Shown here one piece after another: positions 12,486 to 44,718 of a stretch of 64,000 nucleotides of DNA (the stretch's first letter is position 1; each line of letters opens with the position of its first letter). The notes beneath the pieces are model-generated. The model did no database searches. It saw only the letters and a list, made by a program, of their open reading frames with translations, and was not told the origin of the DNA. The stretch is from Bacteroidia bacterium (GTDB lineage Bacteria > Bacteroidota > Bacteroidia > B-17B0 > Aurantibacillaceae). The position numbers were made by a program, and so were the translations under genes. Location of the stretch: positions 186,001-250,000 of the forward strand of contig JAEUTP010000010.1 in the NCBI GenBank assembly GCA_016787705.1, given 5' to 3'.

Positions 12486-12537
12486 TCTATTCTTTCTCAT
12501 CATTTTTCTGAGGTACATTTTCTTCAATAACATACAG

Positions 12538-12658
12538 TTATTTGCGCTTTTTTAATATCAGAGTGATAACAAGTACAGCCAACGCCACATAAAAAATAAT
12601 TTCAACACTTTTTTTATAAGTGGATCGAATTCCATATTTAATTTTTTTTATTAAACAT
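12538..12658 (-). pseudogene. Small membrane-peptide ORF with a frameshift at an A8 run
   Basis: The ATG at 12658 overlaps the stop of the preceding 52-codon ORF (TAATG), typical of translational coupling. As given it reads MFNKKN then stop. With one A fewer in the A8 run (T8 at 12642-12649 on the plus strand), it reads a 39-residue peptide: basic N-terminus (MFNKKIKYGIRSTYKKS), a single membrane segment (IIFYVALAVLVITLIL) and the tail KKRK. The feature length is 121 nt, one more than a multiple of three. Possible explanations are a sequencing error, ribosomal or polymerase slippage, or a recent inactivating mutation. Confidence 0.4.
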
Positions 12659-25485: not shown

Positions 25486-26829
25486 CTAAAATATAAGGCT
25501 AAATACAGTGCCTTCTCCATCAATTGATTGTACTTGAATGTTACCTTTGTGCAGCATCATTACCTGCTTACAAAGACTTAAACCGATACCACTACCGGTT
25601 TTTTTAGTACTGAAGAAAGGAATGAATATTTTATCGAGGATCTCCTGCTTTATACCTACTCCATTATCAGAAATTTTTATTGTTGTTTTTCCATTTATAG
25701 CTGTATCTGCAGAGATTGTCACTTTTGGTTGCTCCACATCTTTCACAGCATCAATAGCATTTAATAAAAGATTAATGAGCACCTGTTCAATTAAACTTGA
25801 ATCAGCTTCCAAAGTAAGAAACGGGTCCCGCAAAACGATCTCGAGATTTATTTTCTTTTTTTCTAAAGTTGGTTGCATCAATTGCTGCACATGTTCAAAA
25901 AGATCAATAAGCATAACTTTGGTCATGTTGGCTTTTGTAATCTTACTTAAACTACGGTAAGTTTCAGTAAATTTTAATAAGCCTTCGCTTCTTTTTTTTA
26001 TGGTACTTATACCCATTTCAATATCATTCAACGCTTCAGTAGAATTATCAGGTTGCGCAACTGTTTCCTGAATCCGGTTTTTAAGTGTCTCTGCCAATGA
26101 AGATATTGGTGCAACTGAATTCATGATCTCATGTGTCATAACACTTAATAATTTTTGCCATGCCTGTGATTCGGTTTCATCCAAAGCCTCATTAATATTT
26201 TGAAACGCTATAAGCTTATACTTTTTTTCTTCGTTTTGAAAAGTTGTGGCTGATAATAATATCTTATAGTTACTGTTATCCTTTGCAATAGAACTTACAA
26301 CATTACTCCCAGGTTCAAGGTCAATTACTTCTGCATATAGCGCAGGATTCCTTTTCTCGAGGGAACGAATCGTTTTTAAATAAGGTATCTGCAATAAATT
26401 TTTAAAAGATTCATTCATCCATAAAATTTCACCTGTTTCAATTTCATAAGATAAAATTCCGGTATCTACGATCTCAAGAATTGTTTTTAAATGAAGATAT
26501 TGCGTTTCCTTTTCTTTACTTATAACTTTAAAGGTAGAGTTTATCTCGTTAAAGCTTGTGCGAAAAGGCTGTAATTCAGAAGGCGCCCGCTTAACATCAA
26601 AGTAGCGTGAAAAGTCGCGATAATGAACAGATTCAACAAATTGTTCAATTTCGCTTTGTGCCTTTTTATGGTAATTATAATAATCATAAAACTGGAAAAT
26701 AATAACAGGAATTACAATTACTTCCAGCAAATACCATTCTTTAACTAAAGATAGTGAAGCTAAGAACAAAGTTGAAAAAACAAGCAGCGCCCTGATAAAT
26801 ATATTCCAGCCAAAGCGTTTAGATCTCAT
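25486..26829 (-). CDS. Membrane sensor histidine kinase, NtrY-like
   Basis: 447 residues. Two N-terminal membrane segments (RALLVFSTLFLASLSLV and WYLLEVIVIPVIIFQFY, about 12-50) with almost no periplasmic loop, a linker, a PAS-like domain (about 110-210; ILEIVDTGILSYEIETGEIL), HisKA with SVMTHEIMNSVAPISSLAE and HATPase_c (LINLLLNAIDAV, ISDNGVGI, GSGIGLSLCKQ). The short loop suggests sensing in the membrane or cytoplasm. The start overlaps the stop of the sigma-54 activator gene by 11 bp, a clear cognate pair. Confidence 0.93.
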   Translation of the reverse strand: MRSKRFGWNIFIRALLVFSTLFLASLSLVKEWYLLEVIVIPVIIFQFYDYYNYHKKAQSEIEQFVESVHYRDFSRYFDVKRAPSELQPFRTSFNEINSTFKVISKEKETQYLHLKTILEIVDTGILSYEIETGEILWMNESFKNLLQIPYLKTIRSLEKRNPALYAEVIDLEPGSNVVSSIAKDNSNYKILLSATTFQNEEKKYKLIAFQNINEALDETESQAWQKLLSVMTHEIMNSVAPISSLAETLKNRIQETVAQPDNSTEALNDIEMGISTIKKRSEGLLKFTETYRSLSKITKANMTKVMLIDLFEHVQQLMQPTLEKKKINLEIVLRDPFLTLEADSSLIEQVLINLLLNAIDAVKDVEQPKVTISADTAINGKTTIKISDNGVGIKQEILDKIFIPFFSTKKTGSGIGLSLCKQVMMLHKGNIQVQSIDGEGTVFSLIF

Positions 26830-28171
26830 ATTTGCTTAATCTTCGGTATAAAGCAGTACGCGTAATACCCAGTTCTTTTGCGGCTTTGGTAATATTGCCA
26901 TTATTTTTTTCGATCACTTTTAGTATTGTTTGTTTTTCTATCGTACTTAATTTCGTCTCACTTTCCTGTTCTGATAAAATTTTGCTTCCTGTTTCTAAAG
27001 GAGAAAAGATAAGATCGTTTGGCTGTAACATCTCTGAATCTGCCATGATCACTGCACGTTCGATTATGTATTGCAATTCGCGCACATTACCTGGAAAGTT
27101 ATATTCTTCTAATTTTAAAATTGCTTTTTCGCTCAACTGCATGTCGGGTTTAAAATACTTATTACCGTAAAATTTTAAAAAATGTTTTGCCAATAAGCTA
27201 ATATCGCTTTTACGTGAGCGCAAAGGCGGAACAATTATTTCGACAGTGTTAATGCGGTAAACAAGGTCTTTTCTGAATTTATTTTCGTTTGCCAGTTCAC
27301 TTAATGGCAAATTGGTTGCGCATATCAATCGTATATCCAAAGGTATGGTATTATTTGTACCTAATCGTGTAACCAGCCTGTTTTGCAAAACAGTTAATAA
27401 TTTTGCCTGTTGCTGTAAAGAGATGTTGCCGATCTCATCCATAAATAATGTACCACTGTTTGCCGCTTCAAAACGCCCTTCCCTATCTTCTTTGGCATCT
27501 GTAAATGCTCCTTTTTTATGTCCGAATAATTCACTTTCAAATAAACTTTCAGTTAATGCGCCAACATCTACTTTTATATAGGATTTTGAAGCACGAACAG
27601 ATCTTTGATGAATAGCCTTTGCAATAAGATCTTTACCGGTACCATTCTCTCCCAAAATTAAAATATTAGCATCGGTTGGCGCTACTTTTTCAATCTTACT
27701 GAATATTTCGCGCATTTGCTCGCTTTCGCCTATTAAGCCGAGTTCTTCATAATTTTGTTGCTTAGCCCAATTTTTCTCACCATCTTTTTTTGCCAAAATA
27801 TCTTCAATGGTTTCAATCAATTTCTGATTGTTCCAGGGTTTTACAACAAAATCAGAAGCACCTTCTTTTAACGAGCGTATTGCAAGATCGATATCTGCAT
27901 AAGCCGTTATCATAATAACACAAGTAGAAGGCCTTGTTTCCTTAACACGCTTTAACCAATAAATTCCTTCATTACCCGTATTAATAGATGCATTAAAATT
28001 CATATCTAATAAAATTAGATCGAAAGAATGCTTCTTTATTAGTGCAAATAAATTTTCCGGATTTTTTTCAGTTATAACCTCTTTAACTTCTTTTTTTAAA
28101 AGTAAATTAATAGCTGTTAAAACATCTTTATCATCATCTAATACTAATATGCTTGCCTGCTTTAAATTCAT
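26819..28171 (-). CDS. Sigma-54-dependent response regulator (REC-AAA+-HTH)
   Basis: 450 residues from the Met of MNLKQASILVLDDD; an in-frame ATG at 28207 adds 12 unlikely residues. Domains: receiver (LILLDMNF phospho-Asp), AAA+ ATPase with Walker A GENGTGKD, the sigma-54 contact loop GAFTDA (a frequent variant of GAFTGA), Walker B TLFMDEIG, arginine-finger region FRKDLVYRINTVEI, and a C-terminal Fis-type HTH (NGNITKAAKELGITRTALYRRLSKYEI, shown here in part: ITKAAKELGITRTALYRRL). It activates RpoN-dependent promoters when phosphorylated, and most likely drives the divergent export operon starting at 28498. Confidence 0.95.
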   Translation of the reverse strand: MNLKQASILVLDDDKDVLTAINLLLKKEVKEVITEKNPENLFALIKKHSFDLILLDMNFNASINTGNEGIYWLKRVKETRPSTCVIMITAYADIDLAIRSLKEGASDFVVKPWNNQKLIETIEDILAKKDGEKNWAKQQNYEELGLIGESEQMREIFSKIEKVAPTDANILILGENGTGKDLIAKAIHQRSVRASKSYIKVDVGALTESLFESELFGHKKGAFTDAKEDREGRFEAANSGTLFMDEIGNISLQQQAKLLTVLQNRLVTRLGTNNTIPLDIRLICATNLPLSELANENKFRKDLVYRINTVEIIVPPLRSRKSDISLLAKHFLKFYGNKYFKPDMQLSEKAILKLEEYNFPGNVRELQYIIERAVIMADSEMLQPNDLIFSPLETGSKILSEQESETKLSTIEKQTILKVIEKNNGNITKAAKELGITRTALYRRLSKYEI

Positions 28172-28262
28172 AAGAATATTGTAACCATAAATATACCAAG
28201 AACGCAATTAACTGGTTTAAAAAACATTATAAAAATACTGTTCATATAGAGTGTATCAAAAC

Positions 28263-28497: not shown

Positions 28498-29757
28498 ATG
28501 GATAGAGTTATTGAAAAGAAAAAGTGGCCTGCAAAAAAAATAATAACGGTTAGCGCTGTTACAGCAATTGTTTTATTGATTGTTGCAAGTTTTTATTTTA
28601 CATCAGGTAAATCAAAATTAAATGTCGACACCGAACGTATTACAATTAGTGAAGTTTCCAAAGGTCCGTTCAGGGAGTTTATTCCCGTAAATGGAATTGT
28701 ATTACCTGTTACAACCATCTATTTAGATGCTTTGGAAGGTGGCCGCGTAGAAGAAAAATTTGTTGAAGATGGTGCTATGATGAAAAAAGGCGATCCTATT
28801 TTACGTTTATCAAATACAGACCTTGAACTTAGTCTTGCTAACCAGGAAACATCAGTGTTTAACCTGTTGACACAAATGCAGATCTCACGCAACGCGGCAC
28901 AACAAAACACCATTATGAAATTAAACCAAGGTTCAGATGTAGAAAGTTCGTTTATTGAAGCTGAAAGAACTTATAAATTAAACAAACAATTATACGATCA
29001 GCAGGCTATTTCGTTAATGGAATTTAAACAATCAGAAAACAATTATAATTATTACTTAAAAAAGAAAACGCTCACCGAACAAATCTTAAAACAAGATTCT
29101 TCTTCTGTTAAAACAGAATTAAGCCAGGCAAATGAATCTTATAAACGTACACAGGAAGCTTTAAAGATCATGCGTCGAAAAGTAGAAGATCTTGTTGTGC
29201 GTGCACCTATTGACGGGCAACTTACTGCTTTGGATGTTGAGATTGGTCAGAATAAAAATAAAGGTGAACGTTTGGGCCAGATAGATGTTACGAGTGGTTT
29301 TAAAGTACGTGTTGATATTGATGAACATTACATCTCAAGAATTTATAATGGTTTGATGGGGGAATTTAGTTTTGGTGGAAAAGATTACAAATTAAAAATT
29401 CACAAAGTATATACACAGGTAACTAACGGAAAATTTCAGGTAGATATGAAATTTGAAGGCGAATTACCTAAAGATGTTCGTCGCGGACAGACCTTGCAAA
29501 TACGTTTAGCCTTAAGCGATGAAACACAAGCTATACTGTTGCCAAAAGGCGGGTTTTATCAGCAAACGGGTGGTAACTGGATATTTAAATTAAATGAGGA
29601 CGGTTCGGTTGCTTATAAAATTGATATACAATTAGGAAGACAGAATCCTGAATATTATGAAATAATGCAAGGTTTACAGCCCGGCGATAAAGTGATCACC
29701 TCTGGTTACGATAATTATGAGAATACACAGGAGCTTGTTTTAAAAGAAAATAAATAA
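28498..29757 (+). CDS. HlyD/MacA-family periplasmic adaptor
   Basis: 419 residues. One N-terminal membrane anchor (about 17-35; IITVSAVTAIVLLIVASFYF), a split lipoyl/barrel-sandwich domain (YLDALEGGRVEEKFVEDGAMMKKGDPI and VRAPIDGQLTALDVEIGQ, quoted in part: VRAPIDGQLTALDVEIG), a coiled-coil hairpin (about 115-225) and a C-terminal beta-barrel/MP domain. It would bridge the inner-membrane ABC permeases to a TolC-like channel. The stop overlaps the next ATG (TAATG), so translation of the ATPase is coupled. It opens the large export operon. Confidence 0.92.
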   Translation: MDRVIEKKKWPAKKIITVSAVTAIVLLIVASFYFTSGKSKLNVDTERITISEVSKGPFREFIPVNGIVLPVTTIYLDALEGGRVEEKFVEDGAMMKKGDPILRLSNTDLELSLANQETSVFNLLTQMQISRNAAQQNTIMKLNQGSDVESSFIEAERTYKLNKQLYDQQAISLMEFKQSENNYNYYLKKKTLTEQILKQDSSSVKTELSQANESYKRTQEALKIMRRKVEDLVVRAPIDGQLTALDVEIGQNKNKGERLGQIDVTSGFKVRVDIDEHYISRIYNGLMGEFSFGGKDYKLKIHKVYTQVTNGKFQVDMKFEGELPKDVRRGQTLQIRLALSDETQAILLPKGGFYQQTGGNWIFKLNEDGSVAYKIDIQLGRQNPEYYEIMQGLQPGDKVITSGYDNYENTQELVLKENK

Positions 29758-30464
29758 TGGAAAATAGAAAATCAAAAACAGATAACATGATAAAAGTAAC
29801 AAACCTCGAAAAAATTTACCGCACAGAAGAAGTTGAAACTGTCGCATTGAATAAAATCTCTTTCGAAATTAAAAATGGCGAATTTGTTGCCATAATGGGT
29901 CCATCAGGCTGTGGTAAATCCACCTTATTAAATATTATTGGTCTGCTGGATGATTTGGATGAAGGCAGTTTTATATTTAATGACACCGAAGTTGCAAAAT
30001 TTAATGAGCGTAAACGTGCCGAAATGCGTAAACATAACATTGGTTTTGTATTTCAAAGTTTTAATTTAATTGATGAGTTGACCGTTTTTGAAAATGTAGA
30101 ATTACCATTAATATATACAGGCGTTAGTGCTTCAGAAAGAAAACGCATTGTTGATGAAGTATTGGATAAGATCCAAATCGCACATCGTCGTAACCATTAC
30201 CCACAACAGCTTTCTGGTGGTCAGCAACAACGTGTGGCAGTTGCACGCGCAGTTGTAAACAAACCAAAATTAATTTTAGCCGATGAGCCTACCGGTAATT
30301 TAGATTCACGTAATGGTAACGATGTAATGCAATTACTAACCGATCTTAATGAGCAAGGTACAACCATTATTATGGTAACACATTCTGAACATGACGCACG
30401 TTATACACACCGCGTTATAAATATGCTTGATGGTCAGATCGTAACACAAAACATTAAAGCCTAA
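29757..30464 (+). CDS. ABC transporter ATPase, MacB/LolD type
   Basis: 235 residues. Walker A GPSGCGKST, Q-loop VFQSFNLIDELTVFENVELP, signature LSGGQQQRVAVARA, Walker B LILADEPTGNLDS and H-loop VTHSE are all intact. This is the stand-alone nucleotide-binding subunit for FtsX-type permeases. Its start may be 29757 (overlapping the adaptor stop) or the Met of MIKVTNLEKIY at 29787; both are in frame. It is followed by the scar of a deleted permease and then five intact permeases. Confidence 0.93.
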   Translation: MENRKSKTDNMIKVTNLEKIYRTEEVETVALNKISFEIKNGEFVAIMGPSGCGKSTLLNIIGLLDDLDEGSFIFNDTEVAKFNERKRAEMRKHNIGFVFQSFNLIDELTVFENVELPLIYTGVSASERKRIVDEVLDKIQIAHRRNHYPQQLSGGQQQRVAVARAVVNKPKLILADEPTGNLDSRNGNDVMQLLTDLNEQGTTIIMVTHSEHDARYTHRVINMLDGQIVTQNIKA

Positions 30465-30472
30465 TTTTTATA

Positions 30473-30567
30473 ATGTTCAAAAATTATTTTATGCATTATG
30501 TACAATTAGTTTCCAGGCTGTAAAGGCAGCCATTGTAAATCTGGTTAAAAGTTTAAGAACAGAATAA
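30473..30567 (+). pseudogene. Scar of a deleted FtsX permease gene
   Basis: Nine bases after the ATPase stop, ATG begins MFKNYF, the usual first residues of the permeases in this array. Within 20 bases the homology jumps to the last codons of such a gene, read in another frame: FQAVKAAIVNLVKSLRTE then stop, closely matching the end of the intact first permease (FQAMKAAIANPIKSLRTE). About 2.3 kb of internal sequence is therefore missing. This is direct evidence that a sixth permease existed here. Confidence 0.85.
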
Positions 30568-30568
30568 A

Positions 30569-32968
30569 ATGATAAAGAATTATTTAAAAATAGCCTGGCG
30601 TAATTTGTGGAAGAACAAATTATTTTCGTTTATAAACATAATCGGTCTTGCAGTGGGAGTGGCTTGCTGCGTACTTATTTTTTTATATGTACAAAACGAA
30701 TTAAGTTACGACAAGTATAATGAAAAAGCGGACAGGATATACCGCATAACTTCTGTTATTTTCCAGGAGAACAAACAAGACCGCTTTGCACCTACTTCAC
30801 CCATTACAGCGCAAAAGATACAGGATGGTTTTCCGGAGGTGGAAAAAATTGTCCGTCTCAATTTTGCAGGCAGACTAATTTCTTATAAAGACAAAAAATT
30901 CTACGACACTAAAACCGTACTTGCCGATTCAACATTTTTTGATATTTTTTCGTTGCCATTACTGGAAGGAAATCCACAAAAAGCATTAACTACGCCTTAC
31001 AGCATTGTGGTGACAGAAAAAATAGCTAAAAAATATTTTGGTAACGAACCCGCTGTTGGCAAAATGCTCAACCTTTCTGACACTATCAATATTATGGTTA
31101 CTGGTGTTATGCAGGACATTCCTCTAAATTCTCACTTTAATGTTGATTGCATTATTTCAAGAAGTACTTTATTCGAACTAGCTAAGAGCAATCCAAACTT
31201 TAGTGAAGAAAACGAAAAGAACTGGCTAAATTGCGATTCTTACTCTTATTTACTTCTAAAAAATAAAGTAGATATTAAAGCTTTTGAATCAAAGGTCAAT
31301 AAATATTTAACCAAAGAAACCGCCGGCCTTAAAAAAGATATTGGCATGTGGATGAATGTGGCAATACAGCCATTGCTTGACATCCACTTAAGATCAAAGT
31401 TAGAACATGAATTCAGAGGCAGCAAGAACAGCGATATTTCTTATGTATACATTTTTTCTGCTACCGCTTTTTTAATTTTATTGATAGCCTGTTGTAATTT
31501 CATTAACCTTTCTACTGCTAAATCATTAAACCGTTCAAAAGAGATCGGTCTGAGAAAAGTAATTGGTGCAAAACGCAGACAACTTATTTCGCAATTTCTT
31601 GGCGAATCTATTTTATTTACAGTTATTGCCAGTCTCCTCTCTTTATTTTTGGTATTATTATTTATTCCTGTTTTTAATTCTTTTATAGAAACAACTTTAC
31701 ATTTTAATTTAAGCATTGTATGGCTTTACCTTGCAATTATTATTGGTGTTGGACTTCTTGCAGGTTTGTACCCTGCTTTATTAATGTCATCGTTTGCTCC
31801 TATACGCTCTCTAAAAGGAAAAATAAGTCATGGTCTTGCAGATATCATTTTCAGAAAAGGTTTGGTTGTTTTTCAATTCTCCATTGCCATCGTTCTTATT
31901 ATTGTTACTACTTTAATTTTAAGACAGCTTGACTTTATACAAAACCGGAACATTGGTTTAAATAAAGAGCAAGTATTAACTATTGAATTAAGAGGTATTG
32001 GTCCTCAAAAAGGCGAAATATTAATTGATGAATTACGCAAAAATCCTAAAGTAGTAAATACCTGCTTAACTAATTTCTCTTTCAAGGGTATTCCTGATAT
32101 TACTGTATTGCCGGAGGGCTTTGCGCAGAACGAAGTAACAGGCTGCCCTGTAATTTCTGTTGATGAAAGTTTTTTAAAAACAATGCAGATCGATCTTGCA
32201 GAAGGCCGTGATTTTTCAAAAGATTTTCCAACGGATGTGAACGAAGCTTTTATTGTTAATGAAGCAGCCGTAAAATTTTTCAGATGGAAAAATTCAAAAA
32301 ATGCAATTGGCAAAAAAGTAGACTGGGCCTATGGTAAAAGTGGTAAAGTAATTGGAGTAGTTAAAAATTTCAATTTCGCTTCTATGAAAGAAGATGTGAA
32401 GCCTTTACTTATTCATATTTTTAAACCATGGCATGGCACTGTTCTTACACGTCTAAAAACAAACGACCTTACTGAAACCATGAAGCAACTGGAAGCCACC
32501 TGGAAAACAATTGCAGGCGATGCACCGTTCAAAGCAACTTTTATGGAAGACGATTTTAATTCTTTATATCAGTCTGAACAAAACATGCGTACTGTTTTAG
32601 GTGCATTTACCTTTTTATCGGTTTTGGTTGCCTGCCTTGGATTATTTGGTTTAGCCGCATTCACAATTAAACAGCGTTTCAGGGAAATTGGTATTCGAAA
32701 AGTTTTAGGTTCAAACACATCGGGCATCGTTCAGTTATTATCAAAAGATTTCTTAAAACTCGTCGTTATTTCTATTTTAATCGCAGCACCTATCGCGTGG
32801 TATGCCATGTATAAATGGCTACAGGATTTTGCTTATAAAACTGAAATCAGCTGGTGGGTATTTGTATTGGCTGGTGCACTAGCTATATTAATCGCTTACA
32901 TCACTGTAGCCTTTCAGGCTATGAAAGCCGCAATAGCAAATCCAATTAAAAGTTTAAGAACCGAATAA
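30569..32968 (+). CDS. FtsX/MacB-type ABC permease 1 of 5
   Basis: 799 residues. It opens MIKNYLKIAWRNLWKNKLFS; first membrane segment about 20-42; periplasmic MacB-like domain; FtsX domain one (about 285-405) with IGLRKVIGAKRRQL; second membrane and periplasmic half; FtsX domain two (about 675-795) with EIGIRKVLGSNTSG; end KSLRTE. The duplicated halves make one polypeptide equivalent to a permease dimer, with no fused ATPase, so it must use a separate one. Such transporters act as mechanotransmitters that power export through the adaptor and TolC. The next gene starts one base after its stop. Confidence 0.93.
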   Translation: MIKNYLKIAWRNLWKNKLFSFINIIGLAVGVACCVLIFLYVQNELSYDKYNEKADRIYRITSVIFQENKQDRFAPTSPITAQKIQDGFPEVEKIVRLNFAGRLISYKDKKFYDTKTVLADSTFFDIFSLPLLEGNPQKALTTPYSIVVTEKIAKKYFGNEPAVGKMLNLSDTINIMVTGVMQDIPLNSHFNVDCIISRSTLFELAKSNPNFSEENEKNWLNCDSYSYLLLKNKVDIKAFESKVNKYLTKETAGLKKDIGMWMNVAIQPLLDIHLRSKLEHEFRGSKNSDISYVYIFSATAFLILLIACCNFINLSTAKSLNRSKEIGLRKVIGAKRRQLISQFLGESILFTVIASLLSLFLVLLFIPVFNSFIETTLHFNLSIVWLYLAIIIGVGLLAGLYPALLMSSFAPIRSLKGKISHGLADIIFRKGLVVFQFSIAIVLIIVTTLILRQLDFIQNRNIGLNKEQVLTIELRGIGPQKGEILIDELRKNPKVVNTCLTNFSFKGIPDITVLPEGFAQNEVTGCPVISVDESFLKTMQIDLAEGRDFSKDFPTDVNEAFIVNEAAVKFFRWKNSKNAIGKKVDWAYGKSGKVIGVVKNFNFASMKEDVKPLLIHIFKPWHGTVLTRLKTNDLTETMKQLEATWKTIAGDAPFKATFMEDDFNSLYQSEQNMRTVLGAFTFLSVLVACLGLFGLAAFTIKQRFREIGIRKVLGSNTSGIVQLLSKDFLKLVVISILIAAPIAWYAMYKWLQDFAYKTEISWWVFVLAGALAILIAYITVAFQAMKAAIANPIKSLRTE

Positions 32969-32969
32969 C

Positions 32970-35390
32970 ATGATAAAAAATTATTTTAAAATAGCTTGGC
33001 GCAATTTGTGGAAGAATAAACTATTTTCTTTTATCAACGTTACCGGCCTTGCTGTTGGTGTTACCTGTTGCATTTTAATATTTATGTATATACAAAGCGA
33101 ATTAAGCTTTGATACAGACTGGAATGATGCAGATCGCATTGTAAGAGTAAATCAAACCTTCTCTATCGGAGGAGTACCAGACCACTATGCTATCACAGCA
33201 TTTGGTGTGGCACCGGCATTAAAACAAGCCTATCCTGAAATTGAAGAAGCAGTTCGTATTGATGACTGGGGAACAGAAACTGTTTGGTTTGAAGATAAAA
33301 TGTTTGATATCGATAACCAGTATTTTGCGGATGCTGATTTTTTTAATGTGTTTAATTTTGAATTATTAAAAGGCAATTCTAAAACGTGCCTGGCTGAACC
33401 TAATTCTGTTGTGATATCTGAAGCAATGGCTAAAAAATTCTTTAACACTGCTGATCCTATAGGCAAAATGTTAAAGTATAGTGAAATGTTGTGCAAAGTT
33501 ACGGGCGTGCTCAAAGAAACTAACAAACAATCACGAATAAAACCCAACACTTTAATTTCATTAAGCTCGTATGGTACAGAAAAAATGAAGGGAATGGCCG
33601 AAAGCTGGTTTGGTGTTGGCTCCTCTACTTTTTTCAAAATAAGAGAAGGCACATCAATTGATCAGTTCAATAAAAAATTACTGCAATGGTCAAGAAAAGT
33701 TTTGATACCTGCTGCAAAAGCAGAAGGAATTGATGATGTGGTAACCTTAAATATCATGCCGCTATCTGAAACTTATTTTGATAAAAAATACAAATACGAC
33801 CAGTTTGAAAAAGGCGAAAAAAGTTACATTTATATTTTTGGATGGGTAGCAGTTTTTATGTTGCTAATTGCCTGCTTTAATTACATGAACCTATCTACCG
33901 CACGCGCAGTAAAACGAGCAAAAGAAGTAGGCCTAAGAAAAGTAGTAGGCGCCAGCCGCAAACAGTTAATTACACAATTCTTAAGTGAATCAACGCTTAT
34001 CTCTCTTAGTGCTTTAGTATTTAGTATTATTTTATTAATACTTTTATTACCGGCCTTTAATGCTATTACACAAAAAAGTATTGACTTGTGGAACACTATT
34101 GGTAATATAGGTTTCTGGACCGCGATTACCGCCATTATATTATTTATTTCGTTTGTTGGTGGAAGCTATCCTGCTTTTTATCTTTCCAACTTTCAGCCAG
34201 CAAAAGTATTAAAAGGAAAATTAATTGAATTGAAAAATATCTCATTTTTTGGGAAACTAAAGTTACGCCAGGTTTTAGTAGTGATGCAATTTACACTATC
34301 GATCATCATAATTATTTCCACTATTTTAATTTTTGACCAGTTAAACTATATGAAAAACAAAGACCTTGGTTTTAATAAAGACAAGGTAATTGTAATGGAT
34401 TATCCATCCGGAGACACGATCATTTCAAAACTTGTGCCTGCAATAAAAAATGATTTTCTCTCGAATCCTTCAATAGAAAAATTTACAACCGCCGACCAGG
34501 TTGTAGGTGCAGCATCGAGACGAGGTTTTTTTATAAAAAATAAGAAAGGGATAGAGCAAAATGTATTAAATTTAAGTGGTGTAGATTATGACTATTTTGA
34601 TGCCCTTGGAATAAAATTAAAATCGGGTCGTAATTTTTCAAAAGATTTTCCTACAGATAAACAGGCTTTTATTTTAAATGAAGCTGCGGTTAAACTTCTG
34701 GGGCTACAAGATCCTATTGGTGTAGAAATAAGTCTCGACCCAAAAGAAAATTTTGGTAAGGTAATTGGTGTAGTTAAAGATTTTAATTATAAGTCGCCAC
34801 ACACGCCTGTAGAACCATTAGCAATAGCTATATCTAATTTTGGCGGTGCACCGGGCTCAAAAATCATGATCAAAGTAAAAGCCAACACTATTTCAGAATC
34901 TGTAGATTTTATTGAACAAAAATGGAAACAATATTTTCCAAAATATCCGGTAAGATATTTCTTTTTAGATGATGAGTTTAATAAACAATATCATAAAGAT
35001 AATACCATGCTTACCATTTTTAGTTATTTTTCAGGCCTTACTATTTTAATATCGTGTTTAGGATTATTTGGCCTTGCCTCATTTACAACAGAACAAAGAA
35101 CAAAAGAAATTGGGATTCGTAAAGTTTTAGGTGCTTCAGTGGCCAACGTTACTTACATCATTTCAAAAGATTTTATTTTATTAGTATTAATTGGTATTGC
35201 TATAGCATCACCAATAGCTTATTACGCCTTAACCAAATGGCTGCAAAATTATGCATACCATACAAATTTAACTGCAGGTGTTTTTATTATTGCGGGTTGC
35301 CTGGCGCTTTTAGTAGCCATTCTTACTGTAAGCTCACAGGCAATTAAAGCAGCACTTACAAATCCAACAAAAAGTTTAAGAACCGAATAA
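32970..35390 (+). CDS. FtsX/MacB-type ABC permease 2 of 5
   Basis: 806 residues with the same plan as permease 1 (start MIKNYFKIAWRNLWKNKLFS, FtsX loops VGLRKVVGASRKQL and IGIRKVLGASVANV, end KSLRTE). Its periplasmic domain is different from permease 1 and looks closest to permease 5: both have SEAMA followed by KFF, a KVTGV-KET segment and SFVGGSYPAFYLSNF or its near copy. This suggests a duplication inside the array. A 12-bp gap separates it from permease 3, the largest gap among the five. Confidence 0.93.
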   Translation: MIKNYFKIAWRNLWKNKLFSFINVTGLAVGVTCCILIFMYIQSELSFDTDWNDADRIVRVNQTFSIGGVPDHYAITAFGVAPALKQAYPEIEEAVRIDDWGTETVWFEDKMFDIDNQYFADADFFNVFNFELLKGNSKTCLAEPNSVVISEAMAKKFFNTADPIGKMLKYSEMLCKVTGVLKETNKQSRIKPNTLISLSSYGTEKMKGMAESWFGVGSSTFFKIREGTSIDQFNKKLLQWSRKVLIPAAKAEGIDDVVTLNIMPLSETYFDKKYKYDQFEKGEKSYIYIFGWVAVFMLLIACFNYMNLSTARAVKRAKEVGLRKVVGASRKQLITQFLSESTLISLSALVFSIILLILLLPAFNAITQKSIDLWNTIGNIGFWTAITAIILFISFVGGSYPAFYLSNFQPAKVLKGKLIELKNISFFGKLKLRQVLVVMQFTLSIIIIISTILIFDQLNYMKNKDLGFNKDKVIVMDYPSGDTIISKLVPAIKNDFLSNPSIEKFTTADQVVGAASRRGFFIKNKKGIEQNVLNLSGVDYDYFDALGIKLKSGRNFSKDFPTDKQAFILNEAAVKLLGLQDPIGVEISLDPKENFGKVIGVVKDFNYKSPHTPVEPLAIAISNFGGAPGSKIMIKVKANTISESVDFIEQKWKQYFPKYPVRYFFLDDEFNKQYHKDNTMLTIFSYFSGLTILISCLGLFGLASFTTEQRTKEIGIRKVLGASVANVTYIISKDFILLVLIGIAIASPIAYYALTKWLQNYAYHTNLTAGVFIIAGCLALLVAILTVSSQAIKAALTNPTKSLRTE

Positions 35391-35402
35391 ATTCTATACA
35401 TC

Positions 35403-37802
35403 ATGTTTAAAAATTATTTTAAAACCGCTTTCAGAACATTGCTTCGTAACAAAACTTACGGCATTATAAATATTGCAGGGCTTTCTATAGGTATTGCGGC
35501 TTGTCTTTTATTATTTATGGTTATTCGTTATGAGCTGAGCTACGATAAATTTCAGCCTAATTATTCAAATATTTATAATATAGTAACAAAAGATACTTAT
35601 TCGGATGGAGTTGATTATACTCCCGGCGTTCCTTATCCTGCGCTGAATGCCTTCAGGCAAGATCTTCCTGAACTAAAAACAGGGGCGATCTATTGTAATT
35701 ATGGCTGCCAGGTTACAATCACTAAAAATTCAACTGATACAAAATTTCTTGAAGAAATGGGTGTGTTTTTTGCGGACCCCGAATTTTTTGAAATATTTAA
35801 ATGCAAATGGCTGATTGGTAGTGAGAAGCTATTGAACGTACCAAATACAATCTCTTTAACAAAAAAAACGGCAGAAAAATATTTTGGCGAATGGAAAACC
35901 GCAATTGGAAAATACATTAAAATGGATAATCTTCTTACCCTACAGGTATCCGGCATCTTGGAAGATGTACCCGCAAATACAGATTTTCCGATTAGAATGG
36001 TAGGTTCTTTTAAAACACTACAAGATAATCCTGTTTATGGTTATTCAACAGAATGGGGCCACACAACCAGTAATTTTCAGGTTTATACATTGTTACCAAA
36101 TAATATCACCAAAAAAAATATCGAAAATCAATTAAGACTCTTAGCAAAAAAATATTACAAAAATCAAAACGGTGAAGAAAGAATAAATGAATTACGGGCT
36201 TTAAGTGATATGCATTTTGATGTCGCGATTGGAAATTTAGGAACACACACAATAAGCCGAACGAGTTTAACAACATTATCATTTATAGGATTTTTAATAA
36301 TACTAATGGCCTGCATTAATTTTATTAATCTATCAACTGCACAGGCTGTTGGTCGCTCAAAAGAAGTAGGCGTTCGAAAAGTACTTGGCGGAAGAAGAAT
36401 GCAGCTTTTCTGGCAAATGCTCGGAGAAACAAAGATCATTGTTTTGATAGCTGCTTCATTTGCATTGATCATTGCACAATTTGCTACACCTTATATTAAA
36501 CATGTAATTTCAATACAGGAGGAACTTAGTATTTTTACATTAGAGAGTATGTTGTTCTTTATTTTAATAATTATCACTGTAACCTTGTTGGCCGGCATAT
36601 ATCCATCATTGATATTATCGGGGTTTAAACCGGTTATAGCTTTAAAAAATAAAATAAACTCAACTACCATTGGTGGTATTTCTCTTAGAAGAGGATTAGT
36701 AGTTGTACAATTTGCTATCTCGCAAATACTGATCATTGGAACTATAGTGTCAGTATCTCAAATGAATTTTATTAAAACTGCCGACCTGGGATTTAATAAA
36801 GAAGCCACTTTACTATTATACGGTAGTACGGATAGCGTAGTTCTTTCAAAACAAAACGCTTTTAAAGAAAGTCTTTTACAAATTCCAGGCGTAAAATTAG
36901 TTTCCTATAATAGCGATGCGCCATCATCCGACAACAACTGGGGTTCTAATTTTGCTTTTGATCACAAACCGGATGAAAAGTTCTCGGTATTTCTTAAAGC
37001 AGTTGATGAGAATTATTACAATACGTTTGGCCTCGAATTTATTGCAGGAGAGACTTACACAAAAGCCGACAGCGCTAAAAAAGTAGTAATAAATGAAACA
37101 TTACTTAATAAACTAAATATAAAAAACGCTCATGAAGCGCTTGGAAAACCTATCCGCACGGGCGGCCAAAAATGGAAAACGATTTGTGGTGTGGTAAAAG
37201 ATTTTAAAACCAACTCGTTAAGAGACGAAATAAAACCTATTATTTTATTTCCAAATAAAATGCATTATAATAAAACAGCGGTAAAACTTCATTCAGCTAA
37301 TATTTTACAAACTCAAAAAGCAATACAACAACAATGGGAAAAATTCTTTCCGGAAAATGTATATGCCGGATTTTTTATGGATGAATTAATAGAGGATTTT
37401 TATCAGCAGGAAACCCAAATGGCTTTATTGTATAAACTCTTTGCAGGCTTAGCGATATTTATTTCTTGTCTTGGTTTGTATGGTTTGATTTCTTTTATGG
37501 CTGTTCAAAAAACAAAAGAAGTAGGTATACGAAAGGTTTTAGGTGCCAGCGTTAGCAGTATAGTATATTTATTTTCAAAAGAATTTACACTATTAATTGG
37601 TATTGCTTTTTTAATTGCTGCGCCTTTAGCATGGTATTTTATGAATGAATGGTTACAAAGTTTTGTATTTAGAGTGAACATTGGTATTGGTGTATTTATT
37701 GTTGCAATACTTACCTCTATGTGCGTTGCGTTTATAGCAGTTGGCTATAAAGCAATAAGAGCAGCAATAGCTAACCCTGTAAAAAGTTTAAGAACCGAAT
37801 AA
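35403..37802 (+). CDS. FtsX/MacB-type ABC permease 3 of 5
   Basis: 799 residues, start MFKNYFKTAFRTLLRNKTYG, FtsX loops VGVRKVLGGRRMQL and VGIRKVLGASVSSI, end KSLRTE. It is the most divergent of the five in its N-terminal third and shares its MFKNYF start with the deletion scar at 30473. The first periplasmic domain contains the distinctive Cys pair segment YCNYGCQVTI. Gap to the next gene is one base. Confidence 0.92.
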   Translation: MFKNYFKTAFRTLLRNKTYGIINIAGLSIGIAACLLLFMVIRYELSYDKFQPNYSNIYNIVTKDTYSDGVDYTPGVPYPALNAFRQDLPELKTGAIYCNYGCQVTITKNSTDTKFLEEMGVFFADPEFFEIFKCKWLIGSEKLLNVPNTISLTKKTAEKYFGEWKTAIGKYIKMDNLLTLQVSGILEDVPANTDFPIRMVGSFKTLQDNPVYGYSTEWGHTTSNFQVYTLLPNNITKKNIENQLRLLAKKYYKNQNGEERINELRALSDMHFDVAIGNLGTHTISRTSLTTLSFIGFLIILMACINFINLSTAQAVGRSKEVGVRKVLGGRRMQLFWQMLGETKIIVLIAASFALIIAQFATPYIKHVISIQEELSIFTLESMLFFILIIITVTLLAGIYPSLILSGFKPVIALKNKINSTTIGGISLRRGLVVVQFAISQILIIGTIVSVSQMNFIKTADLGFNKEATLLLYGSTDSVVLSKQNAFKESLLQIPGVKLVSYNSDAPSSDNNWGSNFAFDHKPDEKFSVFLKAVDENYYNTFGLEFIAGETYTKADSAKKVVINETLLNKLNIKNAHEALGKPIRTGGQKWKTICGVVKDFKTNSLRDEIKPIILFPNKMHYNKTAVKLHSANILQTQKAIQQQWEKFFPENVYAGFFMDELIEDFYQQETQMALLYKLFAGLAIFISCLGLYGLISFMAVQKTKEVGIRKVLGASVSSIVYLFSKEFTLLIGIAFLIAAPLAWYFMNEWLQSFVFRVNIGIGVFIVAILTSMCVAFIAVGYKAIRAAIANPVKSLRTE

Positions 37803-37803
37803 T

Positions 37804-40215
37804 ATGATAAAAAATTATTTTAAAATAGCATTAAGAAATTTATTTAAGCATAAAGTATTTTCATTCATAAATATTTTTGGCTTGTCAATTGGTATCGCTG
37901 CGTTTTTGCTCATCGTTCAATTTGTAAGCCATGAAACAAGCTATGATAAATTTGAAGAGAACGGCGACCGTATTTATCGCTTACAGCAAAACCGTTACAA
38001 TAGTGGGAAGCTTACAACACAATGGGCTGCGGGTGCAGCAGGCGTTGGCAAAGCGGTTAAAGACGCTTTTCCTGAAGTGGAGGCAATGGCAAAATTAACA
38101 CCTGAAGAAGGTGTTATGTCTTACGGAGAAAAAAAGTTTAAAGAAAAAAGAATGTTCTTTGCCACCAATTCCTTCCTGCCAATGTTTTCATACAAAGTAA
38201 CAAAAGGAAAGTTAGATAATGCTTTGACCGATCCTTTTACCTCTGTAATAACAGAATCTACTTCTAAAAAATATTTTGGCAACGAAGATCCTATCGGGAA
38301 ATTAATAAGCTATAATAAAATAGATAATTACAAGATCACTGCTGTTGTGCCCGATGTTCCTGAGAATTCGCATTTAAAATTCGATCTGCTTTTTTCTTTC
38401 TCAACCTTTTTAAAATTTGCCGGACCCGAATCAGAAACCACTTTTGACTGGGACGGATATTACACTTACATAAAAGTAATACCCGGTACGAATGCACAAC
38501 GCCTGGAAAATAAAATTAAAGTATACATAGATAAAAAAGTTGGTCCTGAATATAAAAAAAGGAATGAAAGCGTTGAATACAAATTGCAACCACTTCATGA
38601 TATTCACTTATATTCTTCTTATATGATGGAGGCAGAAGTAAATGGCAATGGCCAGTCGGTTTATTTTTTGCTGATCATTGCTGTATTTATTATTATCATT
38701 GCCTGGATCAATTATATTAATCTTTCAACAGCAAGGGCAATTGACAGGGCAAAAGAAGTAGGTGTAAGAAAAGTAATGGGTTCATACCGTTCACAGCTTA
38801 TTGCGCAATTTATGTTCGAAGCTCTGCTCATCAATTTATTTTCTGTTGTTTTTGCTTTTGTTTTGGTTCTGATCTCTCTGCCTTTATTTAATTCGTTAAC
38901 AGGAAACGAATTAAATTTTTCGCTACTTCTGCAGTGGCAGTTTTGGTTAACGCTTGTTTTATTGTTTGCAGGTGGTACTTTACTGGCAGGTTTATACCCG
39001 GCATTTATCATGTCTTCCTTTAAACCAATAACTGTATTAAAAGGAAAATTCACCCGCAGCAAACAAGGCACTTTATTGCGCCAATCACTAGTGATCATTC
39101 AGTTTGCAGCATCCGTAATTTTAATGGTAGGTACGTTTTGTGTTTATAAACAAGTAAACTTTATGCAAAGCCAGGAACTTGGTGTGAACATTGAAAAAAC
39201 GCTTGTATTTGGCGGCCCTAACGTAATTGATACAGCTACCTATAAAAACCGTTTAAAAACATTTAAAACAGATCTGTTAAGTGTGCCAGGCATCCACAAA
39301 GTCATAACCTCTACCGCTGTGCCGGGCAAAAAACCCGGTTGGAACGCAGGAGGCATTAAGCTGGTGGAAGATGGTGATGAAAAAGGCAACCAATACAGAA
39401 TAATTGGTATAGATTACGATTTTTTAGAGGCTTATGGTATACAGGTTTTAAAAGGAAGAGCTTTTTCAGAACAGTTTCCTACCGACAAAAAATGTGTTCT
39501 ATTTAACGAAGAAGCCATAAAATTAATGGGCTTTAAAAACGCCGAAGAGGCGCTAAACCGACGTATTGATTTTTGGGGAGACCAATACACTATTATTGGT
39601 GTTGTTTCCAATCATCACCAGGAGGGACTTAGACAGCCCTACGACGCTCATATATTTAGATTAACACCCAACACCAGCAGTTATTTTTCTTTGAAAATAG
39701 AAAAGAACAAAGATCCGCAGGAGATCATACAAATTGCAGAAAAAAAATGGGCAGAGTTTTTTCCCGGTAACCCGTTTGAATATTTCTTTTTAGATGATCA
39801 TTATGAAGAACAATATAAAGCCGATAAACAATTCGGAAAAACATTTGGTCTTTTCGCTCTACTTGCAATTATTGTAGCCTGTTTGGGTTTATTGGGCCTT
39901 GCATCTTTTGCAACCACACAGCGTACAAAAGAAATTGGTATCAGAAAAATATCAGGTGCATCTATTCCACAATTATTAATGCTGCTAACCAAAGATTTTA
40001 TAAAACCTGTTCTAATTTCTTTTATAATTGCTGTACCCGTTACTTATTACTTACTTCAAAAATGGCTACAGAATTATGCGTTTAAAATAAATCTTAGTCC
40101 ACTTTTATTTATTTTACCTGCCCTACTGATATTGATAATTGCCATTATAACCATAAGCACACAAACGCTAAAAGCTGCAAACGCCAATCCAGTTAAAAGT
40201 TTAAGAACAGAATAA
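37804..40215 (+). CDS. FtsX/MacB-type ABC permease 4 of 5
   Basis: 803 residues, start MIKNYFKIALRNLFKHKVFS, FtsX loops VGVRKVMGSYRSQL and IGIRKISGASIPQL, end KSLRTE. Periplasmic halves carry motifs found in the SusC-neighbour type of Bacteroidota permeases (KYFGNEDPIGKLI, VVPDVPENSHLKFDLLFS). It has the usual eight predicted membrane segments. The next ATG follows the stop by one base. Confidence 0.92.
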   Translation: MIKNYFKIALRNLFKHKVFSFINIFGLSIGIAAFLLIVQFVSHETSYDKFEENGDRIYRLQQNRYNSGKLTTQWAAGAAGVGKAVKDAFPEVEAMAKLTPEEGVMSYGEKKFKEKRMFFATNSFLPMFSYKVTKGKLDNALTDPFTSVITESTSKKYFGNEDPIGKLISYNKIDNYKITAVVPDVPENSHLKFDLLFSFSTFLKFAGPESETTFDWDGYYTYIKVIPGTNAQRLENKIKVYIDKKVGPEYKKRNESVEYKLQPLHDIHLYSSYMMEAEVNGNGQSVYFLLIIAVFIIIIAWINYINLSTARAIDRAKEVGVRKVMGSYRSQLIAQFMFEALLINLFSVVFAFVLVLISLPLFNSLTGNELNFSLLLQWQFWLTLVLLFAGGTLLAGLYPAFIMSSFKPITVLKGKFTRSKQGTLLRQSLVIIQFAASVILMVGTFCVYKQVNFMQSQELGVNIEKTLVFGGPNVIDTATYKNRLKTFKTDLLSVPGIHKVITSTAVPGKKPGWNAGGIKLVEDGDEKGNQYRIIGIDYDFLEAYGIQVLKGRAFSEQFPTDKKCVLFNEEAIKLMGFKNAEEALNRRIDFWGDQYTIIGVVSNHHQEGLRQPYDAHIFRLTPNTSSYFSLKIEKNKDPQEIIQIAEKKWAEFFPGNPFEYFFLDDHYEEQYKADKQFGKTFGLFALLAIIVACLGLLGLASFATTQRTKEIGIRKISGASIPQLLMLLTKDFIKPVLISFIIAVPVTYYLLQKWLQNYAFKINLSPLLFILPALLILIIAIITISTQTLKAANANPVKSLRTE

Positions 40216-40216
40216 T

Positions 40217-42619
40217 ATGCTTAAAAATTATTTAATAGTCGCATGGCGAAATTTAATGAGAAACAAAGTGTTTTCATTTATAAATATTTTTGGCCTTTCA
40301 CTTGGCATTACTTCCTGCATATTTATTTCGCTATATATATTAGAGGAAATAAGCTATGATAAGCATTGGAAAAACGCAGATGCAATTATTAAAATTAATT
40401 GGGAGGAAACAGGAAATGGAATTACAGATCCATACGCCGTATCGGCTTTTGGAACAGGTCCTTCTTTAAAGAGAAATTTTCCGGAAGTAGAAGAGTTTTT
40501 AAGAATTATGCCAGCAAACAATCTGACAGTCTCTTATAATAATAAGTATTTTAATGAGAATAAAAATTATTTTGTAGATAGCACCTTTTTTAATGTATTT
40601 AATTATGAATTATTATACGGTGATTCGAAAAACTGTTTAAGAGAGCCAAACTCTATTGTTATTTCGGAAGCGATGGCTGCTAAATTTTTTGGTAAAAACA
40701 ACCCATTAGGCCTGATCCTTAAATACCCAAAAAATTCGTATAAAGTAACCGGTGTAATTAAAGAAACTCAGCAAAAATCTCATTTATCACCAAATGCATT
40801 ATTACGGATAAATTATTCTGACAAAGAGATAATAGAGCAACAAGAAGGTTGGTTATGGATAAATACATACACATATCTAAAATTGCGTACTCCTTTAGAC
40901 GCTGTGGCGTTTGATGAAAAGTTAAAAATATGGGCAAAAAAAACGCTTGAACCAGTATTAAAAAAAGAAAATGTAGGGTATAAAATAGAATTAAAAAGCA
41001 AAGTCGTTTCTCAAGTTCATTTTGATAATTACCACGCAGATGAATTTGAAAAATCAGATAAAAGCAATGTATATTTTTTTGGGCTTATCTCTTTTTTCAT
41101 ACTATTAATTGCTTGCTTTAATTACATGAATCTTTCTACAGCAAAAGCAACAAAACGAGCTAAAGAAGTAGGTATGAGAAAAGTAATTGGCGCTTTAAGA
41201 AAGGAAATTATATTTCAATTTCTAGGCGAATCATTCATTATTTCTCTCATCTCTTTTATATTTTCTTTGGCACTATTGGTTATATTTATTCCTGCGTTTA
41301 ACGCTCTTACATCAAAAAATATTATATTTCTAAATATCTTAGCTGACTTTAACTTCTGGGCAATATCATTACTTATTATCCTATTTATTTCTTTTATTGG
41401 TGGTAGTTATCCTGCATTTTACCTATCAAATTTTAAACCAATACATATACTTAAAGGTAACTTAAACCTATTTAAGAGTCCTATATTATTTAGAAAAATA
41501 AAATTCAGACAATTATTGGTAGTAGCGCAATTTGCTATTTCTATTATCATTATTATAGTTACTATACTAATTTACGATCAACTTAAACTACTAAAGAATA
41601 AAGACCTTGGATTTAATAAAGATCAGGTATTAGTATTACGAATGCCGGGATTAGATTCACTAGGTAACACCAAAGTATCTTCATTAAAAAATGAACTTTT
41701 GCTAAGCCCTTTAATTAAGAAATTTTCAACTGCAAATCAAATTATTGGTGTTGAAGGAAATATACTCTTTAGAACCAAAGATAAGGGTCAAATGGGACAG
41801 TCGTCGTTAAACGTTAATTCAGGGGATTATGAATACCTTGATCTTTTAGGCGTAAAATTTGTTGAAGGAAGAAATTTTTCTAAGCAAATAACGGGAGACG
41901 GCAACAATTTTATTATTAATGAAGCTGCTGCCAAATTTTTACAACTAAAAAATCCGCTAAGTGCAGAGCTTGGTTGGGACGAACAACATCTTGGGAAAAT
42001 AATAGGAGTTGTAAAAGATTTTAATTACAATTCTTTACATACTAAAATAGACCCATTGGTTCTTGCATTAAGAAATTCAGTAGGATTGTATGCACTTATT
42101 AAATTATCTTCTGATAATGTGAAGCAAAGCGTAGATCTTATTACAGAAAAATGGAAAGTATTTTTTCCTCAAAATCCGATCTCTTACTTCTTTATGGATG
42201 AAGGATTTAACAAGCAATATAGTAGAGACGATGTGATGTTAATTATTTTTGTTTGCTTCGCAGGTCTTACGATTTTAATTTCATGTTTAGGGTTATTTGG
42301 TCTTGCTTCCTATAGCACAGAGCAACGTACTAAAGAAATTGGTATACGAAAAATAATAGGCGCCTCTGTTACAAATATCATTAAGCTAATTTCAATTGAT
42401 TTTCTTTTTTTAATACTCGTTGCTATTATTATCGCTTCACCAATAGCATACTTTTTTATAAAATCCTGGTTACAAAATTTTGCCTACAAAACCGAGATCA
42501 GTTTTTGGGCTTTTTTACTTGCTGGAATCTTAACAATATGCACTGCATTTTTAACTGTTTTTTATATTGCACTAAAAGCAGCATTTACTAATCCAATTAA
42601 AAACTTAAGAACAGAATAA
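40217..42619 (+). CDS. FtsX/MacB-type ABC permease 5 of 5
   Basis: 800 residues, start MLKNYLIVAWRNLMRNKVFS, FtsX loops VGMRKVIGALRKEI and IGIRKIIGASVTNI, end KNLRTE. Resembles permease 2 over its whole length by eye. The base composition seems a little more AT-rich than its siblings, with more ATA and TTA codons, possibly reflecting a different history. It is followed after 10 bp by the second ATPase gene. Confidence 0.93.
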   Translation: MLKNYLIVAWRNLMRNKVFSFINIFGLSLGITSCIFISLYILEEISYDKHWKNADAIIKINWEETGNGITDPYAVSAFGTGPSLKRNFPEVEEFLRIMPANNLTVSYNNKYFNENKNYFVDSTFFNVFNYELLYGDSKNCLREPNSIVISEAMAAKFFGKNNPLGLILKYPKNSYKVTGVIKETQQKSHLSPNALLRINYSDKEIIEQQEGWLWINTYTYLKLRTPLDAVAFDEKLKIWAKKTLEPVLKKENVGYKIELKSKVVSQVHFDNYHADEFEKSDKSNVYFFGLISFFILLIACFNYMNLSTAKATKRAKEVGMRKVIGALRKEIIFQFLGESFIISLISFIFSLALLVIFIPAFNALTSKNIIFLNILADFNFWAISLLIILFISFIGGSYPAFYLSNFKPIHILKGNLNLFKSPILFRKIKFRQLLVVAQFAISIIIIIVTILIYDQLKLLKNKDLGFNKDQVLVLRMPGLDSLGNTKVSSLKNELLLSPLIKKFSTANQIIGVEGNILFRTKDKGQMGQSSLNVNSGDYEYLDLLGVKFVEGRNFSKQITGDGNNFIINEAAAKFLQLKNPLSAELGWDEQHLGKIIGVVKDFNYNSLHTKIDPLVLALRNSVGLYALIKLSSDNVKQSVDLITEKWKVFFPQNPISYFFMDEGFNKQYSRDDVMLIIFVCFAGLTILISCLGLFGLASYSTEQRTKEIGIRKIIGASVTNIIKLISIDFLFLILVAIIIASPIAYFFIKSWLQNFAYKTEISFWAFLLAGILTICTAFLTVFYIALKAAFTNPIKNLRTE

Positions 42620-42629
42620 AAATAATTGT

Positions 42630-43295
42630 ATGATAGAACTAAAGAACATTTTTAAATGGGTAAACCAGGGGGCAAACAAAACATTTTTGTTACGCGACAT
42701 TAATTTAACTATTAACGAAGGAGAATTAATTTCCATTATGGGCCCTTCGGGTTCAGGAAAATCGACCCTGCTAAATGTAATAGGCATGCTGGATGGCTTT
42801 GATGAAGGAGAATATTCTTTTATGGGAAATTCGGTAAAGGGTTTAAAAGAAAAACAACGCTCACAATTGTATAAAGAACATATTGGATTTGTTTTTCAGG
42901 CTTATCATTTAATTGATGAGTTGACAGTTTTCGAGAACATCGAAACTCCCCTCCTTTACCAGGATATGAAATCTTCTGAAAGAAAAGCTTTAGTTGCCGA
43001 TGTGCTCGACCGTTTTAATATTGTTGGCAAAAAAGATCTGTTTCCAACACAACTATCCGGCGGGCAGCAGCAATTGGTTGGTATTGCAAGAGCTTTAATA
43101 GGAAAACCAAAATTATTGCTGGCCGATGAGCCAACAGGAAACTTGAATTCAAAACAAGGCGAAGAAATCATGGAACTTTTTAAAAAATTAAATAAAGAAG
43201 ATGGCGTTACGATCATACAAGTAACACACTCAGAAAAAAATGCAGAGTATGGATCGCGTATAATTAATTTATTAGATGGTAGAATTGAAAAATAG
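42630..43295 (+). CDS. Second ABC ATPase of the export operon
   Basis: 221 residues. Walker A GPSGSGKST, Q-loop VFQAYHLIDELTVFENIETP, Walker B LLLADEPTGN, H-loop VTHSE. Two places deviate from the first ATPase: the signature reads LSGGQQQLVGIARAL (Leu where Arg is usual) and the D-loop reads NLNS instead of NLDS. These changes could affect dimerisation with the partner ATPase or its hydrolysis cycle. It may pair with the first ATPase as a heterodimer or serve a different set of permeases; neither can be decided here. Confidence 0.92.
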   Translation: MIELKNIFKWVNQGANKTFLLRDINLTINEGELISIMGPSGSGKSTLLNVIGMLDGFDEGEYSFMGNSVKGLKEKQRSQLYKEHIGFVFQAYHLIDELTVFENIETPLLYQDMKSSERKALVADVLDRFNIVGKKDLFPTQLSGGQQQLVGIARALIGKPKLLLADEPTGNLNSKQGEEIMELFKKLNKEDGVTIIQVTHSEKNAEYGSRIINLLDGRIEK

Positions 43296-43299
43296 AATA

Positions 43300-44718
43300 A
43301 TGAAGAAAATTGCGCTTACAATATTACTTTTTTTTACCTTAAAAAATATTGCGCAGGATAGCACCGTTTATACACTAAAACAATGTGTTGAAATTGGGTT
43401 GCAAAATAATTTAAATGTAAAAATGGCCGAATTTGCAATGGAAAGTAATGATGCGAGATTACAGCAATCACGTACTAATTCGTTCCCAAATATTTCTGCC
43501 TACGCCAATCAGGGCATCAACCAGGGTAAAAGTATCAACCCATATACCAATACATTTATCAACCAAAAAATAAATACCGGTCAGTATGGTTTAAATGGCA
43601 GCATGACGTTGTGGAGTGGCTTTAATAATTATAATATCATGCGCCAAAATGCATTTGCATACCAGGCAGGTAAAATGGATTATGAACAGTCAAAAATGGA
43701 TATTACAATAGGTGTAATGTTGGCGTACTTACAAGTTTTGAGTAACGAAGAGCAGCTTAAACAAGCTGCTTCGCAGGTTGAAGTAAGTAAAGCACAAACG
43801 GAACGTTTAAATGTTTTGGATAAAAGCAATGCTGTGTCGCCTTCTGTATTATACGATACAAAAGGGCAATTAGCAAATGATAAAATAAACTACATAAATA
43901 CAAAAGCAGCATTGGCAAGTGCTAAAATTACCTTAGGACAATTACTCAATTTAAACTTCGCCCCTACTGCAAAATTTGAGAAAATTAATGCCGAAGCAGA
44001 GATCAAAGTTTATGAAACAAATACTGATGCCATTTATGCCGAAGCAACAAAGAATTTGCCAATGATCAAAGCTGCAGAATACCGTAGAATTAGCGCTGTA
44101 AAAAACCTTCATGCCTCAAGAGGATCACTATTTCCGACGCTATCCTTAAATGGCAGTATTGGCACTAACTATTCTGATGCAGCACTTAATCAAAGAATAA
44201 CTGGAGTTTCGGATGCCGGTACAGATAGTTATGTACTTATTAATAACACCCCTGTAACTGTTTATTCTCCACAATATAACTTCAGCAATGAAAAGATCTC
44301 GTTTAATGAACAGTTTAAAAATAATTTAAATTCTTATGTTGGTTTAAGCTTACAGTTTTCAATTTTTAGTTCGCTAAGAACTAAAACACAAATTTCACTT
44401 GCAAAAATAAATAAAGAGCAATCGGAAGTACGGCAAAAAAATACGAATATAGTTTTAAAAGCAGCTATTGACCAGGCAAAAACAGATATGGCGGCCGCTT
44501 ACGAACGTTACCTGATTTTACAGGAACAAGTTCAGGATTATACCGCGTCTTTTAAAATAGCAACGGTAAAATTTGAAAAAGGCGCTATAACAACCGTTGA
44601 TTATGTAATTGCAAAAAGCAATAATGATAAAGCACAAATGAATTTTATAGCTGCAAAATATGATTACATCTTAAAAAGCAAAGTATTGGATTATTACAAT
44701 GGTAAACTGCCCATGTAA
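43300..44718 (+). CDS. TolC-like outer-membrane efflux protein
   Basis: 472 residues from the ATG at 43300 (an in-frame ATG at 43276 lies inside the ATPase gene and before the signal peptide, so it is rejected). Signal IALTILLFFTLKNIAQ, then the first OEP repeat (YTLKQCVEIGLQNNLNVKMAE) and a second one (about 250-460) with long helices and a strand insertion. It would form the trimeric exit channel for the adaptor and permeases. It is the last gene of the operon; no clear terminator hairpin follows. Confidence 0.92.
   Translation: MKKIALTILLFFTLKNIAQDSTVYTLKQCVEIGLQNNLNVKMAEFAMESNDARLQQSRTNSFPNISAYANQGINQGKSINPYTNTFINQKINTGQYGLNGSMTLWSGFNNYNIMRQNAFAYQAGKMDYEQSKMDITIGVMLAYLQVLSNEEQLKQAASQVEVSKAQTERLNVLDKSNAVSPSVLYDTKGQLANDKINYINTKAALASAKITLGQLLNLNFAPTAKFEKINAEAEIKVYETNTDAIYAEATKNLPMIKAAEYRRISAVKNLHASRGSLFPTLSLNGSIGTNYSDAALNQRITGVSDAGTDSYVLINNTPVTVYSPQYNFSNEKISFNEQFKNNLNSYVGLSLQFSIFSSLRTKTQISLAKINKEQSEVRQKNTNIVLKAAIDQAKTDMAAAYERYLILQEQVQDYTASFKIATVKFEKGAITTVDYVIAKSNNDKAQMNFIAAKYDYILKSKVLDYYNGKLPM

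Follow-up and report, generated by a model that had tools for sequence, protein, structure and literature searches.

The closest described systems are tripartite exporter operons of the MacB type and duplicated permeases of about 800 residues, namely the ADOP permeases (NCBIfam TIGR03434) and the darobactin exporter DarB/C/D. The operon described here resembles them in its adaptor, its ATPase and the 800-residue length of its permeases, which have two MacB_PCD/FtsX stretches. In full-length alignment, an array permease scored 311 bits against ADOP and 147 bits against DarB, below the curated cut-offs of 622 and 700; at 311–318 bits against the cut-off of 622, the two permeases scanned do not qualify as members of ADOP. 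The operon differs from both systems in combining several divergent permeases and two ATPases, in the order adaptor, ATPase, five permeases, ATPase and outer-membrane protein. Between its first ATPase and its first intact permease lie 95 bases that are, with high confidence, a deletion pseudogene. In this reading a first permease, most likely of the A type described below, once stood here, and an internal loss of about 2.26 kb spared only its two ends. The relevant features of the window, by which we mean the whole 64-kb stretch of DNA analyzed, are as follows.

28498..29757, + strand: periplasmic adaptor of HlyD_3/RND_mfp type, first gene of the operon (Pfam HlyD_3, E 1.7e-12; NCBIfam RND_mfp above cut-off)
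29757..30464, + strand: MacB/LolD-type ABC ATPase, directly 5' of the remnant (Pfam ABC_tran, E 2.1e-36)
30473..30491, + strand: head of the remnant, ATG and MFKNYF codons plus one extra base of a permease start (top start-matrix match in the window; 15–18 of 19 bases shared with the five array permease starts)
30491..30493, + strand: deletion junction, probably with about 2.26 kb missing (from comparison of array gene starts, which places the exact join only by inference)
30493..30567, + strand: tail of the remnant, a permease's final 24 codons with their stop, not in the frame of the head and with a near-invariant Pro changed to Leu (tail matrix 61 bits; column counts over 210 permeases)
30569..32968, + strand: first intact permease, clade B, ortholog of the second permease in relatives that keep an A-type first one (tree; MacB_PCD and FtsX domains, two stretches each)
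32970..42619, + strand: four more intact permeases, at 32970–35390, 35403–37802, 37804–40215 and 40217–42619 (ORFs; Pfam)
42630..44718, + strand: second ABC ATPase and TolC-like outer-membrane protein, end of the operon (Pfam ABC_tran and OEP)

Beside the operon and divergently encoded are a histidine kinase and a sigma-54 response regulator (25486–28207, − strand), which may be candidate regulators of the exporter operon.

A gap of 104 bases separates the ATPase from the first intact permease. The ATPase stop codon (30462–30464) is followed by the 8 bases TTTTTATA and an ATG at 30473, where the 95-base remnant (30473–30567) opens with the permease start ATGTTCAAAAATTATTTTA; its tail stops with TAA at 30565–30567, and after a single base the first intact permease begins with its ATG at 30569. 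Read from the ATG at 30473, the head frame encodes the 16 amino acids MFKNYFMHYVQLVSRL before a stop, whereas the tail lies in a different frame, in which 24 codons give ALCTISFQAVKAAIVNLVKSLRTE and a stop and no start codon of its own is present. Direct reading confirmed the original prediction that an MFKNYF start runs, with a break in frame, into the final 24 codons of a permease, although the peptide quoted there covers the last 18 of these codons and the count of 24 is right when the preceding six, ALCTIS, are included. The array genes continue from their starts with AAATAGC or similar, but after base 30491 the remnant has TGCATTA, running into TGCATTATGTACAATTAGTTTCCAG. A search for direct repeats at this junction had been suggested; the family codons give no overlap between head and tail at the join after TTATTTTA and make no repeat evident, a comparison that is weak because the parent sequence is lost. 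The tail carries Leu at a site where 206 of the 207 intact aligned permeases have Pro and one other has Leu; apart from this change its conserved residues are well kept, over a length too short for a rate test.

Both parts had been said to match the array, and they match permease ends far beyond chance. We derived a 19-base start matrix from 150 permeases found in other genomes and ran it over the two strands of the 64-kb window: position 30473 ranks first (23.9 bits), ahead of the five real gene starts, whereas among ten Markov-simulated windows the highest score was 19.9 bits (+ strand only). The tail scores 61 bits against the tail matrix, within the range of 48–72 bits for the real array tails and above one intact tail (48 bits), and the ten simulated windows gave at best −15 bits. 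The homology to an intact family that marks a pseudogene is therefore significant at the head and at the tail. The coding sequence is mostly missing and its frame broken, as only 95 of about 2360 bases are left and the tail is out of frame.

We compared the window with eighty loci with the same adaptor from named genomes and with the arrays of same-genus genomes. When 41 permeases of the window and its nearest relatives were placed in a tree, a clade B, which includes the first intact permease of the window, separated from an A group. Four loci on single contigs (L025 in G010, L026 in G032, L049 and L051) have the order ATPase, A, B, their A-clade permease starting −1 to 4 bases past the ATPase stop; the B-type permease next to it is 53–68% identical to the window's first intact permease and orthologous with it. 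The window has the order ATPase, remnant, B, which bears out the expectation that the remnant occupies the site of a first permease directly after the ATPase. Two further loci lie on short contigs that do not show the B neighbor: L027 (G009) has an intact A-type gene in the first slot, and in L050 (G022) an A-type gene starts 134 bases after the ATPase, its start being 77% identical to the A-type gene of L027 over 60 amino acids. An intact homolog is thus found at the site of the remnant in L025, L026, L049, L051 and L027, and the start of one in L050. Not all relatives share this arrangement: G001 and G021 have the ATPase without an adjoining A, and in G030 an A-group gene is located after B. 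A larger permease tree, whose deeper forks are weakly supported, shows a broad A group with members that often come first in their arrays. In the locus tree the window falls within lineages that carry A: L026 is its sister (weak support), and the basal L049 also has the order A–B. A loss in the window's lineage is therefore the simplest history. An A-type protein search of the window's own genome found no A-type permease; it contains exactly five such permeases, all in the array and 35–39% identical to the query.

Split permease genes, in which two ORFs jointly cover a full-length permease, were seen in three loci of the comparison set (L049, 6952–9489; L076, 15209–17626; L087, 3072–5432) and reflect frameshifts or stops that are either real or sequencing errors.

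The tail is identical to each of the window's five permeases at 49–51 of 75 bases and to distant permeases at up to 57. We therefore rejected a recent duplicate of a window permease as the parent: the tail is no closer to its neighbors than to many distant permeases, making a recent neighbor copy unlikely. The last 21 bases of the remnant are identical to those of permease 4, but as the 3' codons of permeases are biased, this is no sign of a recent event. Attempts to assign the tail to a clade by sequence failed, as the ranges for A-type (45–56 of 75 bases) and B-type permeases (49–53) overlap and the tail is too short; it is the position that makes an A-type gene the most likely parent. The A-type first permeases of relatives measure about 2355–2364 bases, and about 2.26 kb would thus have gone, close to the roughly 2.3 kb given in the original prediction, provided that one A-type gene was lost.

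The same arrangement could be read as a working part of the operon, with either the 16-codon ORF or the tail serving as a leader peptide or as a translation-initiation region through which the first permease is coupled to the ATPase. The tight spacing, with an ATG 8 bases past the ATPase stop and a tail ending one base ahead of the next ATG, fits such a role, and so does the synonymous bias in the last codons of permeases, where TTA was observed 47 times against 17 expected and AGA 37 times against 16 when the next gene follows within less than 25 bases; given this bias, the tail may aid the start of the gene that follows. However, the bias is also found at distances of more than 60 bases to the next gene and need not be a start signal, none of the relatives searched has the fragment, and several relatives pass from ATPase to permease within a few bases. 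A leader peptide would be expected as a short ORF conserved in place, and the finding of the same short fragment in relatives had been named in advance as the result that would overturn the fossil reading. We found no match spanning the junction in the other genus genomes searched or in the named loci, and DNA matches in the genus genomes cover only the ATPase end, or the tail and the next start. As Leu replaces the near-invariant Pro and the parts are out of frame, a conserved leader peptide is ruled out, and a functional element of any of these kinds is very unlikely.

If the remnant is a deletion pseudogene, its two parts may still come from different genes, the head from one permease and the tail from another, with at least one whole gene lost between them. 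The head and tail are too short to prove a common gene, and related arrays range from 2 to at least 6 permeases. On the other hand, in the relatives with A first that gene alone separates the ATPase from the clade-B permease, so that the loss of one gene suffices, and we consider a multi-gene deletion improbable. The gene boundaries of the array are repetitive, and the collapse of repeats in a tandem array of similar genes might have produced an assembly artifact. Such a collapse joins matching positions, though, whereas here a gene start meets a gene end without shared sequence, and similar remnants are found in independent assemblies, isolate genomes included; an artifact is therefore extremely unlikely. 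A small conserved gene in the gap was also tried and rejected: G001 (L024) and G030 (L029) have an ORF of about 100 amino acids there, which has no relation to permeases and is missing from the window. This ORF, at 1923–2247 in L024 and in the gap of L029, has a hydrophobic segment and a common I(Q/K)PFT(S/A)L motif; the G030 copy gave no NCBIfam match.

The 95 bases, read as a deletion pseudogene, share with other bacterial deletion pseudogenes in operons the presence of both family ends, the near-complete loss and broken frame of the gene, an intact counterpart at this site in relatives and the lack of conservation of the scrap itself. They differ in being unusually short while both ends are complete (19 bases of head, 24 codons of tail), and in having counterparts in other families, where like remnants are again found in this slot of such operons. 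We looked for stretches of permease lying outside intact genes and checked the hits by eye; this search, together with a later one that was blind to internal gaps and added L154 as the sixth case, gave the following remnants in the gap between ATPase and first permease, besides that of the window.

L098: in-frame fusion of a 33-codon head and a 29-codon tail
L056, Filimonas zeae: in-frame fusion of a 149-codon head and a 60-codon tail
L080: 20-codon head only
L075, Mucilaginibacter sp. Bleaf8: 93-codon tail
L154: 51-codon tail

In L075 a small ORF with a signal-peptide-like start (12096–12600) lies between the ATPase and the permease tail. With the window included, there are six remnants in first gaps and two in internal gaps (L064 and L078). 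The first slot appeared enriched (5 of 80 first gaps vs. 2 of 186 internal gaps, Fisher P = 0.027), but this comparison was made post hoc, counts the window and involves first gaps that are longer, and we treat it as a lead only. It is tempting but doubtful that the first slot is a turnover hot spot across Bacteroidota, in which repeated near-complete internal deletions spare the ends carrying the operon's translation signals; we find the recurrence mildly interesting.

The most likely course of events is that, with several related permeases in the operon, the first one was no longer needed and its gene was removed by one or more internal deletions. The ends most likely survived because longer deletions would damage a neighbor, either the ATPase or the region in which the next permease starts: that start lies one base after the remnant stop, and with operon genes only a few bases apart there would be little room for a wider deletion. 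We infer that the scar was made by a single deletion and not by a series, although by our estimate only about 0.2% of uniformly placed breakpoint pairs would spare no more than 95 of the roughly 2360 bases, a figure that hints at serial deletions or selection and not at one random event. Likewise, the shortness of both ends suggests either repeated erosion or selection keeping the boundaries only. The scar is probably without function.

Taken alone, the remnant of the window is a routine pseudogene, an ordinary product of deletion with an unusually clear comparative record. It documents the loss of a member from a multi-permease exporter operon with the intact counterparts in place, and our literature searches returned nothing on remnants in such arrays. 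The set of remnants in one operon type provides material for studying deletion boundaries and the need for operon spacing.

The last codons of the permeases, often AAA AGT TTA AGA AC. GAA TAA (e.g., 32936–32968 of the window), show a synonymous bias well beyond the genes' own codon use, and the bias to AGT TTA AGA persists with the next gene more than 60 bases away.

Both birth and death of genes had been read from the remnant. Gene death in the array agrees with the fossil reading supported here, but the fossil itself does not show birth, the sign of which comes from a separate pair of permeases. The genes at 32970–35390 and 40217–42619 are nonadjacent and 51% identical, and among the sampled relatives they pair only in the window (100/100 support), which suggests a lineage-specific duplication.
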